Shown: piece after piece, positions 54,196 through 57,190 of the stretch
Layout of the letters: each line of letters opens with the position of its first letter
Position numbering within the stretch: the first letter of the stretch is position 1
Assembly: GCF_963677845.1 (NCBI RefSeq)
Contig: NZ_OY782498.1
Coordinates: forward strand, 134,001 to 198,000
Source: an uncultured Pseudodesulfovibrio sp.
Lineage (GTDB): Bacteria; Desulfobacterota; Desulfovibrionia; Desulfovibrionales; Desulfovibrionaceae
DNA: 64,000 bases
Reading direction: 5' to 3'
Notes under the pieces: model-generated
What the model was told of the DNA's origin: nothing
Seen by the model: the letters and a program-made list of their open reading frames with translations, nothing else
Databases searched by the model: none
Position numbers and translations under genes: made by a program

Positions 54196-55257
54196 ATGAG
54201 CGATAGCGCCAAACGTTCCCAGGCATACACCGCAGCTGGTGTGAACATCGAGGCAGGCAATGAATTTGTCGGCCGTATTAAAGATATGGTGAAATCCACC
54301 TTCACGCCCGGCGTGGCAACGGACATCGGCGGCTTCGGCGGTCTGTTCAAGCCAGAAATTTCCGGTATGGAAGCTCCCATGCTCGTGTCCGGCGCTGACG
54401 GCGTTGGTACCAAGCTCAAACTTGCCTTTATGTTTGATAAGCATGACACCGTGGGCATTGATTTGGTTGCCATGTCGGTCAACGATGTGCTTGTCCAAGG
54501 GGCGACCCCACTGTTCTTCCTCGACTATTTTGCTACAGGCAAGTTGGAATCCGGCGTAGCTGCACAGGTAGTGTCCGGTGTGTGTGAAGGGTGCCGTCAG
54601 TCAGCGTGCGCACTTCTTGGCGGTGAAACCGCTGAAATGCCCGGTTTCTATCCTGATGGCGAGTACGACCTGTCCGGTTTTGCCGTTGGCATGGTGGATA
54701 CGCCCAAGATGGTGACTGGCAAGGACGTCAAGGCTGGTGATGTGCTCATCGGGCTCGGTTCTACGGGCGCCCATTCCAATGGTTGGTCTTTGATTCGAAA
54801 GATTCTTGGCGAATCCGGTCTCAAACAAGACGACACATTCCCCGGTACGGACAAGACCGTGGCCGAGGTGCTTATCGAGCCGACCAAAATTTACGTCAAG
54901 GCCGTCCTTGAAGTTATGGAATCTCTGACCATCAAGGGCATGGTTCATGTCACGGGTGGCGGTTTCTACGACAATATCCCCCGCGTTTTGCCTGATGATG
55001 TCACGGCGGCCATTGAATTTGGCTCCTGGGATATGCTGCCGATTTTTGATTGGCTCAAGAATCAGGGTGGACTGTCCTGGCCGGAAATGTTGCAGATATT
55101 CAACTGCGGTATCGGATATATTCTTATCCTTGAAGCAGACAGCGCAGACAAGGCCATGGAGATACTTGACGCTCGTGATGACGTTGATGCCTACCGCATC
55201 GGTGAAATCGTTGAGCGCGAAGGCTCTGGTGAACAAGTCGAGATTACTTTTCCCTAG
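54196..55257 (+). CDS. purM: phosphoribosylformylglycinamidine cyclo-ligase
   Basis: AIR synthetase of purine synthesis, ATP-dependent. 353 residues. N-terminal 'AYTAAGVNIEAGNEFV', 'DIGGFGGLFKPEISGMEAPM', 'SGADGVGTKLKLAFM' and 'CALLGGETAEMPGFYPDGEY' are the family signatures. The ATG follows AGGAGAAA. It stands alone with its own terminator at 55281. Confidence 0.97.
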   Translation: MSDSAKRSQAYTAAGVNIEAGNEFVGRIKDMVKSTFTPGVATDIGGFGGLFKPEISGMEAPMLVSGADGVGTKLKLAFMFDKHDTVGIDLVAMSVNDVLVQGATPLFFLDYFATGKLESGVAAQVVSGVCEGCRQSACALLGGETAEMPGFYPDGEYDLSGFAVGMVDTPKMVTGKDVKAGDVLIGLGSTGAHSNGWSLIRKILGESGLKQDDTFPGTDKTVAEVLIEPTKIYVKAVLEVMESLTIKGMVHVTGGGFYDNIPRVLPDDVTAAIEFGSWDMLPIFDWLKNQGGLSWPEMLQIFNCGIGYILILEADSADKAMEILDARDDVDAYRIGEIVEREGSGEQVEITFP

Positions 55258-55280
55258 TATTAGATTGTATTGAGTTTATA

Positions 55281-55310
55281 AAAGGCCGCTCTTTGGAGCG
55301 GCCTTTTTTT
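55281..55310 (+). terminator. intrinsic terminator after purM
   Basis: AAAGGCCGCTC and GAGCGGCCTTT with a four-base loop, then seven T. Confidence 0.92.
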
Positions 55311-55443
55311 GATGGAATTATTATCGGTTTGTCTTGAACCTGACCCTGTTTTCATTTTATTGTCAGAGTATCCCCATCATTTTGTGATGGTGGAAATTTT
55401 GCCCTGCGGTTGACGTATGTGGCGACAGAAGAAGGCAGGAAAT

Positions 55444-55860
55444 ATGATTCAGCGAAAAATGTTGTTGATGACATTGGCTTTCATGCTGGGATTTGTGTGT
55501 TTGGTTGAAAGTGTGCCGAGTGCAAGTGCCGGTGACAATATCCCCCGCATGGGGGTGGAGCAACTGGCGGAGATGATCGATTTCGATGGATTGATGATTA
55601 TTGATGTCCGTCGAGGCCGGGATTGGGACAAAAGCGAGTTCATGATCAAGAATGCAGTCCGTAAACCGCACGATGACACTTCGTGGATAGCGAATGTGCC
55701 TCAAGGTAAGACGGTTGTTCTTTATTGCGCCTGATATAATGAATACACCAGCGCCCGGGCGGCGCAGGCTTTGATCAAGGCCGGTCATGAGAACGTCTAT
55801 GCTCTGAAAGGTGGATGGGCTGCGTGGATAAAAAAGGAATATCCGACGCAATTGAAATGA
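55444..55860 (+). CDS. rhodanese-like sulfurtransferase, probable selenoprotein
   Basis: 138 residues if the TGA at 55732-55734 is read as Sec97. An exported protein: signal peptide to 'PSASAGD', then 'MGVEQLAEMIDFDGLMIIDV' (CDC25/rhodanese domain), 'GKTVVLYCA', then TGA, then 'YNEYTSARAAQALIKAGHEN' and 'VYALKGGWAAWIKKEYP'. The second half is clean rhodanese in the same frame, so a split is unlikely. Related sequences read YCxCPNExTSA; TGA stands at the second Cys. The ATG at 55444 follows AGGAAA. A nonsense pseudogene is the alternative. Confidence 0.8.
55732..55768 (+). promoter_or_regulatory. candidate SECIS element of the rhodanese gene
   Basis: After the TGA (55732-55734) a hairpin begins: CC, a mismatched A, GCGCC, loop CGGGC, GGCGC, mismatched A, GG (55748-55768). 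The loop starts 21 bases after TGA and contains G. Fits the bacterial SECIS spacing. The stem is also coding, so its conservation must be tested at RNA level. Confidence 0.65.
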
Positions 55861-55875
55861 CAACTTGATGAAAAT

Positions 55876-55909
55876 AAAAAAGCCGCCCTCTCTATGGAGG
55901 GCGGCTTTT
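55876..55909. terminator. bidirectional terminator
   Basis: AAAAAGCCGCCCTC and GAGGGCGGCTTTT with a six-base loop between the rhodanese gene and the convergent radical SAM gene. Confidence 0.9.
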
Positions 55910-55927
55910 ATCCTTTGGGTGTAATGG

Positions 55928-57190
55928 TTATCCCAGATACGGATTGAAATATCCGTATTCAATCCACGGGAGAGCCTTTTTAAGCCGTTTCTTGAAGTTC
56001 ATAAAGCCCATGCTTGGGGAATGCCCGAAGGGTTTCATCAACCGCATGTATAGGTCTGGGTCGAGGTTGAGGTTGCGCAACTGAACAAAGTCGTATTTGC
56101 ATGATTCGCCCAGTTCAACCAATGCGTCGAATTCTTCTTCGGTATCGGTAATGCCAGGAAAGAAGAGAAGGTTCAATGACACGAACATGCCGACCTCATG
56201 GGCTTTGGCAATGGTTTCACGGACATCTTCAAAGGTGTAGCCCTTGGGACGGTAGTACGCCTCATATGGGCCTTTACGCGCTGAGTTCAGGCTGACGCGG
56301 ATGGAGTTCACTCCGGCCACCTTGAGGGCGGGAATGACCATGTGGCGTGACCCGTTGGTGTTCACGTTGACAGTACCGGACCCTCCGTCAGATCGATATT
56401 CCTTGATCGCATCACAGATGAGTTCAGCTTCAGTGAGCGGTTCGCCTTCGCACCCCTGCCCAAAGGAAAAGATGGGGCGGCGTTCACGGGATTCGTGGCG
56501 GCGCATGACCTGCACGATTTCCTTGGCCGTGGGCGTGAAGCTGATACGGCATTGCGGGGATGGGAATCCGGAGTCTTCGGGCTGTTTTGAAATGCACCCG
56601 ACGCATTGGGCGTTGCATGACTGTGCCGTAGGCAGAGGGCATTCAAAGCGGCCTAATGCGAGGTTTTTGGCTGCAGGACAACCGCTGGTCAAGGCACAAC
56701 CTGCCAGATGGTTGACCAATCGATTTTCCGGCATTTCCGAAATAAGTTGGTGCGCTCCAGCTTCCACTCGATCTGGCGGAATGTGCTTGAACACTTGTCG
56801 TTTGTCGTCGTCTACCTTTTTGGCGCAGACCCAGAACTTGCCGTCAGCAAATCCAATGCCGCCATATGAGAGCAAAGGCAGGATTGGCGCATCGTCGTCT
56901 AAGTCGTAGGCCGCAACGCCGGTGAGCGTGTGACCCGGACAAGCAAATGCGGCCACGGCCAGTTCTTCCATGACTTCGGCTTGTCCCGTTTCCGGGTTAT
57001 AGCCCATGGCGTGACGACCGGGCAGCATGAAGAATTCGGATTCTGCGGGGAGCGGGGTGATTTCATCAGGTCTTGGCAGGCCGAATTCGTCGCCTCGACG
57101 GATCATGAGTAAAAGATCCGGATGGTCGAATATTTCACCTTCCGGAGTCGCAAACAGCATCTTTGGCTGTGGTTTTTTCTTGGATGACAT
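55928..57190 (-). CDS. radical SAM protein of unknown function
   Basis: A 420-residue protein. The N-terminal ~190 residues have no recognised fold. Then the motif CNAQCVGCIS (Cx3Cx2C-type, preceded by FECPLPTAQS), 'FSFGQGCEGEPLT', 'TVNVNTNGSRHMVIPALK' and 'VSLNSARKGPYEAYYRP' form a radical SAM barrel. A few such proteins occur in sulfate reducers. Substrate unknown. The only ribosome-site candidate is AGGATG ten bases upstream of the ATG. Confidence 0.85.
   Translation of the reverse strand: MSSKKKPQPKMLFATPEGEIFDHPDLLLMIRRGDEFGLPRPDEITPLPAESEFFMLPGRHAMGYNPETGQAEVMEELAVAAFACPGHTLTGVAAYDLDDDAPILPLLSYGGIGFADGKFWVCAKKVDDDKRQVFKHIPPDRVEAGAHQLISEMPENRLVNHLAGCALTSGCPAAKNLALGRFECPLPTAQSCNAQCVGCISKQPEDSGFPSPQCRISFTPTAKEIVQVMRRHESRERRPIFSFGQGCEGEPLTEAELICDAIKEYRSDGGSGTVNVNTNGSRHMVIPALKVAGVNSIRVSLNSARKGPYEAYYRPKGYTFEDVRETIAKAHEVGMFVSLNLLFFPGITDTEEEFDALVELGESCKYDFVQLRNLNLDPDLYMRLMKPFGHSPSMGFMNFKKRLKKALPWIEYGYFNPYLG

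Follow-up and report, generated by a model that had tools for sequence, protein, structure and literature searches.

A predicted exported Cys-x-Sec rhodanese of the NF041203 selenoprotein family in Pseudodesulfovibrio, with double-selenocysteine and haem-fused relatives

The locus and its reading frame

The window analysed here is a stretch of 64,000 nucleotides from an uncultured Pseudodesulfovibrio sp. (contig NZ_OY782498.1). A forward-strand frame at 55444–55857 contains a single internal TGA, is otherwise open, and reads MIQRK...VVLYCA-U-YNEYTSARAA...QLK. The locus comprises the following features.

55432–55440, + strand: Shine-Dalgarno-like AAGGCAGGA, preceding the ATG at 55444; inferred by reading of the sequence
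55444–55860, + strand: gene for a predicted exported rhodanese-family selenoprotein of 138 residues, with Sec97 and stop TGA at 55858–55860
55444–55530, + strand: probable signal peptide, residues 1–29, ending SASA (hydrophobic 12-mer mean 2.54; cleavage site placed by eye)
55555–55833, + strand: Rhodanese domain, residues 38–130, from PF00581, the AlphaFold2 model and Foldseek
55726–55728, + strand: Cys95 codon TGC, the first residue after strand 90–94 of the model
55732–55734, + strand: UGA codon of residue 97, almost certainly read as selenocysteine (conserved column, covarying hairpin)
55748–55768, + strand: SECIS-type hairpin, from its fold, a synonymous-shuffle test, covariation and its loss in most members that have lost the UGA
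55878–55909, no strand assigned: terminator-like inverted repeat directly 3' of the gene, from an inverted-repeat scan

The Pfam Rhodanese profile (PF00581) scored 51.3 bits against a cut-off of 22.2, and the match spans the TGA. Together with the open frame, this confirms the initial annotation of the locus as a rhodanese with an in-frame TGA and an intact C-terminus, the coordinates of which were correct to within one base. The hairpin that it described is also present, although it starts 13 bases after the TGA and not 14. Its core stem pairs 55751–55755 with 55761–55765 around the loop CGGGC (55756–55760), and the outer pairs start at 55748. An in-frame ATG at 55417, upstream of that at 55444, provides an alternative, longer start.

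From their translations we take the upstream neighbour to be purM-like and the downstream neighbour, on the opposite strand, to be radical-SAM-like; each recurs in 6 of the 19 stretches compared. Given these neighbours and the terminator-like repeat that follows, the gene is probably transcribed alone. Two terminator-like sites were found in 55100–56000 against 0.9 expected in shuffles, a sigma-70 promoter scan found none against 1.5 expected in shuffles, and the window holds no operon partner that names a substrate or function. Elsewhere, 23 of 169 loci examined have a divergent APC-type permease-like gene upstream and in the same orientation, mostly adjoining (for example L048:1965–3287 (−), L183:4516–5823 (+) and L193:3191–4438 (−)), while in a 24th case, L079, it lies downstream on the other strand. 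Two pairs of these permease loci look like duplicates between collections. Pfam recognised one of the four permease-like genes scanned, and the genome of the window gave no match to the gene.

Conservation of the TGA and family membership

Relatives were sought in 148 genomes of the genus, family and order, the window's own included (147 others). The 21 best relatives from the other genomes (one per genome, E up to 4.5e-11) carry TGA in this column with one exception, L032, which is of the same family and has TGC. Two of the 20 TGA copies, from G025 and G035, give an identical protein. Within the genus the gene is present in 10 of 35 other genomes, with TGA in 10 of 10, and the other 25 gave no match better than 5.3e-6. 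The DNA pattern YCA-TGA-xxE-x-TSA was found in at least 119 stretches of the named genome collection, and all 80 of the matches listed fall within a rhodanese frame. These 80 come from Thermodesulfobacteriota (31), Acidobacteriota (19), Myxococcota (13, an assignment that could stem from records whose titles give just Deltaproteobacteria), Gemmatimonadota (9), Nitrospirota (4), Chloroflexota (2), Thermomicrobiota (1) and Aminicenantes (1).

The window protein scores 148.8 bits on NCBIfam NF041203 (rhodanese_LYCAU), above the curated cut-off of 115, and carries the LYCAU motif at residues 93–97 as CxU with in-frame UGA. A 2026 review lists this family as CxU with one Sec, under the name 'Rhodanese-like domain-containing protein form 3' (PMC13188914), and the entry is apparently the 'COG0607 form 2' of PMC9312934, which gives the same example accession. 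With the profile score over cut-off and a CxU, one-Sec entry already published, the window gene is, by sequence, an ordinary member of a catalogued selenoprotein family. NF041203 is over cut-off in 61 of 395 genomes of the phylum sample, and the titles of family records name Acidobacteria, Gemmatimonadetes, Nitrospirae, Chloroflexi and deltaproteobacteria.

Motifs were tallied over 120 loci, made up of 30 from the 148-genome search, 30 from a profile search of the 395 genomes and 60 retrieved stretches. The last set holds, with one exception and the own copy aside, every listed match over cut-off that was not already a locus, plus 8 below cut-off; the tally is therefore not a random sample. 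With the window copy included, 112 of the 120 score at least 95 bits on the profile of alignment A1 and count as the family. Their motifs are CxU in 86, UxU in 13, CxC in 3, CxS in 6, SxS in 1, CxA in 2 and a shifted CCSU in 1, the class having been assigned by eye for L092, L133, L057 and L113. Most relatives thus read YCAU, and the statement of the initial annotation that relatives read YCxC does not hold.

Two sets of unusual copies were seen. In L113 the motif is shifted by one residue (YCCSU), and the same genome also has a normal CxU copy. Family f13 contains CxS or SxS paralogues (L101, L114, L118, L120, L121, L125, L126 and L111) beside UGA copies; one of the f13 paralogues has TGA at the conserved GGW tryptophan, and L111 is cut by a TAA.

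A covarying hairpin downstream of the UGA

With positions numbered from 0 at the T of TGA, the hairpin has the core pairs +19/+33, +20/+32, +21/+31, +22/+30 and +23/+29. Both +20 and +32 fall at the third position of a codon. Among the 95 distinct UGA members that came from the protein or profile search, 94 have these two positions paired, where 71.8 were expected (sd 2.5) and the maximum of 1000 shuffles was 80. Over all distinct members they are paired in 174 of 175 (133.2 expected, sd 3.3), as C:G in 92 and U:A in 78; the other 80 members included here were retrieved with a pattern that itself dictates some of the 5' arm, so they count for less and are favoured in the folding test. In the loop, all 175 have G at +25 and either U or G at +26. 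The pairing of these wobble positions beyond expectation, as either C:G or U:A, indicates that the hairpin is under selection. On a quick tree (98 rows) the state of the pair changes 16 times. A strict test restricted to starred branches leaves only four independent pairs (p 0.125), with nearly all shifts in the same direction at both positions and none opposite.

Folding energies point the same way. Compared with synonymous-codon shuffles, 179 members gave a mean z of −1.2, with 92% below zero, whereas control stretches gave mean z values of −0.32 upstream and −0.30 downstream. Only 28% of single sequences reach 5% in this test, and the window hairpin by itself is only modestly more stable than its shuffles (z −1.62, 7% as stable). 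An Rfam scan of 55300–56000 gave nothing near any gathering score.

The hairpin is mostly lost together with the UGA. It is complete in 13 of 13 UxU members, compared with 1 of 12 members without UGA (0 of 3 CxC, 1 of 7 CxS or SxS and 0 of 2 CxA). The exception, L101, has a complete hairpin and reads TCA at the site of the TGA.

Selenocysteine machinery and the reading of the TGA

The genome of the window has matches over cut-off to tRNA-Sec (81.8 bits), SelB (398), SelA (615) and SelD (342), while among 14 control genomes these were over cut-off in 5, 2, 1 and 2, respectively. Its selD gene has an in-frame TGA of its own (L275, G000:C1:3423424–3424353), and SelD here is probably itself a selenoprotein. 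Co-occurrence of SelA with the family was considered as a further line of evidence. Of the 80 genomes tested, 76 are UGA-bearing and 74 of these have SelA, as do the four whose retrieved copies are without UGA and 355 of the 395 genomes of the phylum sample. Because SelA is near-universal in this sample its presence says little, and we set the co-occurrence aside as uninformative. G416 and G447, which are 99% and 97% complete and have a UGA-bearing copy, gave no SelA match.

Selenocysteine at the TGA, as first proposed, has strong support from the conservation of its column, from the covarying hairpin of SECIS type and from the complete Sec machinery, and we regard TGA 55732–55734 as almost certainly a selenocysteine codon and not a sign of decay. 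The modest energy signal of the single window hairpin would be in keeping with a real stop codon, whether the rhodanese is decaying or functions in truncated form. In relatives, however, the domain and its conserved residues carry on past the TGA, and the hairpin covaries. Across the 112 domains, moreover, every in-frame TGA lies at one of the two motif positions, apart from one in a shifted motif and one at a Trp position, and in-frame TAG is never seen (TAA is not countable, as frames are cut there). Conservation of the TGA column and of the hairpin leads us to reject the stop-codon reading, which we hold to be extremely improbable. The initial annotation had proposed conservation of the UGA and hairpin in relatives as a check, and both the TGA column of the best relatives and the covarying wobble pair bear it out; neither decay nor missing Sec machinery, the two findings that it named as contrary to its reading, was encountered when looked for.

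Predicted export, fold and active-site loop

The N-terminus of the window protein, MIQRKMLLMTLAFMLGFVCLVESVPSASA, is predicted to be a typical signal peptide. Of the 112 members, 104 have a hydrophobic stretch ahead of the domain, in a few cases as part of a membrane fusion and not as a signal peptide, against 0 of 112 for an in-domain control. At the level of prediction this supports the earlier proposal of an exported protein. The accompanying remark that selenoprotein export would be needed is true, but such export is nothing unusual and has precedents in the periplasmic NiFeSe hydrogenase and formate dehydrogenase.

An AlphaFold2 model with Cys in place of Sec has a mean pLDDT of 88.9, with blocks of 94–98 over the domain, and its strand 90–94, loop 95–100 and helix 101–112 are those of a rhodanese. 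The best-ranked Foldseek matches are rhodanese-domain proteins. The strand ends at Tyr94, which makes Cys95 the first and Sec97 the third residue of the loop. Ungapped alignments to GlpE and 6mxv place Sec97 opposite the Cys of those chains; contrary to these, a gapped alignment to 3tp9 places Cys95 opposite the catalytic Cys. The canonical rhodanese loop is Cys-x4-Arg. This Arg is absent from the window protein, in which +5 of Cys95 is Glu100 and +5 of Sec97 is Thr102, both nearly invariant in UGA members (96 of 99 and 93 of 99, respectively). The label 'sulfurtransferase', which rests on the fold, is best regarded as putative.

Double-selenocysteine and fused relatives

The column of Cys95 is itself TGA in 13 of the 112 family members, which therefore have UGA at both motif positions (L033, L056, L062, L066, L077, L086, L095, L096, L098, L100, L107, L127 and L133). 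UxU changes nine times on a quick tree of 111 rows, built on few columns and with many forks unresolved, and at least six of the changes are forced by starred branches. Selenocysteine at the first motif position has thus apparently been gained or lost repeatedly, and UxU appears to have arisen more than once. In these genes a single SECIS hairpin would serve both UGAs, which lie six bases from each other, and a diselenide could form in the protein. Among the published papers listed in a literature search for UxU, NF041203 and fused rhodaneses, no description of UxU was found.

Seven proteins are fused, namely L033, L035, L090, L098, L100 and L127, which are in the tally, and L178. Each continues for 388–404 residues after the rhodanese domain and has 8 CxxCH motifs. 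Both of the fusions scanned, L098 and L127, match the multihaem cytochrome family PF13447, and their match to hydrazine dehydrogenase is far below cut-off. UxU is found in 4 of the 6 tallied fusions, three of the six being close relatives, compared with 9 of the 106 other members. Other arrangements also occur, with a Na/H exchanger domain ahead of the rhodanese in L158 (Gemmatimonadetes) and a VTT domain ahead of it in L166 (Candidatus Acidiferrales record).

Discussion

Leaving its chemistry apart, we consider it highly probable that the window gene encodes an exported NF041203 selenoprotein in which UGA is decoded as Sec within a CxU rhodanese loop. On this reading, SelB and tRNA-Sec decode UGA 55732 via the hairpin directly downstream, and the protein, with export predicted, folds as one rhodanese domain with the Cys-Ala-Sec (CxU) pair in its active-site loop. 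In the mechanism that we propose, one member of the pair would take periplasmic sulfane sulfur from a persulfide, polysulfide or thiosulfate; the other would resolve it, releasing sulfide and leaving an S–Se bond, which a periplasmic thiol or cytochrome electrons would then reduce. This would make the protein a sulfur redox enzyme, as opposed to a plain cyanide-type rhodanese. We infer a sulfane-sulfur redox enzyme from the CxU or UxU pair, the predicted export and the haem fusions. The redox persulfide mechanism with its Cys–Sec bond is a tentative proposal, to which we give a somewhat less than even chance.

The rhodanese fold would also suit a sulfur donor or carrier, a classical sulfurtransferase in which Sec97 passes a perselenide-type sulfur to a periplasmic acceptor and Cys95 is a protective neighbour only, and the ungapped alignment that sets Sec97 against the Cys of GlpE and 6mxv agrees with such a role. 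The retention of the pair as CxU or UxU in 99 of the 112 members argues against this, as do the eight-haem fusions, which suggest electron flow, and we think it possible but rather unlikely. The protein might instead handle selenium, oxidants or metals in the periplasm, as a peroxidase or in selenite or metal reduction, and not sulfur. Nearly all selenoproteins of known function are antioxidant or redox proteins, according to a review (PMC9312934), and the rhodanese-like extH is described from a Geobacter gene cluster that also encodes a cytochrome proposed to contain Sec, loss of the cluster's porin impairing selenite and tellurite reduction (PMC5877670). ExtH, however, is a 49 kDa protein, the window holds no evidence on substrate, and the similarity to ChrE-like proteins, at 47.2 bits, falls far short of the cut-off of 120. 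We regard such a function as distinctly improbable.

Returning to sulfur redox chemistry, its extension to the whole family is more speculative. The family may be a selenium-dependent periplasmic sulfur redox system of anaerobes in which CxU has repeatedly become UxU and the domain has been wired to eight-haem cytochrome regions, so that an S–Se or Se–Se switch would carry electrons between sulfane sulfur and the chain of haems. This is a conjecture that we consider doubtful as it stands.

Compared with known systems, the window gene shows no essential difference from NF041203 rhodanese_LYCAU, having the same CxU and one Sec, while the UxU relatives, with two Sec, differ from the 'CxU, 1' entry in the table of PMC13188914. 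The window protein shares fold and domain size with single-domain rhodaneses of the GlpE type. Unlike GlpE, it has a CxU pair, no Arg at +5 of either member and the nearly invariant Glu100 and Thr102 instead, and in the alignment two more residues lie between Cys95 and the helix Ser than between Cys and Ser of GlpE. TsoB (NF045694), a rhodanese/DsbD fusion-like double selenoprotein, also has a rhodanese domain with Sec; its listed motif is UxxxxU with two Sec (PMC13188914), and the window protein reaches only 26.5 of 805 bits on its profile. Rhodanese-type proteins with Sec are reported from the Sargasso Sea and GOS data (PMC1088965, PMC2398784) and in a study of marine deltaproteobacteria (PMC8318568), the relevant passages of which do not give the CxU motif. 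A paper on sulfur disproportionation (PMC12998232) treats rhodanese-like sulfurtransferases, for the most part SseA-type ones, and its passages on them mention no selenoprotein. In the literature searched, the passages that mention the NF041203 family gave no function for it.

The window gene adds a well-supported CxU selenoprotein, with export predicted, to a family that is widespread across the phylum sample and beyond. It is also an unusually clean comparative case of a bacterial SECIS element, with covariation at synonymous sites and loss of the full hairpin in 11 of 12 non-UGA members. The double-Sec and haem-fused relatives are less described and a more interesting lead than the window gene itself. 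Recurrent UxU motifs and haem fusions lead to a testable hypothesis on what selenium may do in anaerobic sulfur redox chemistry.
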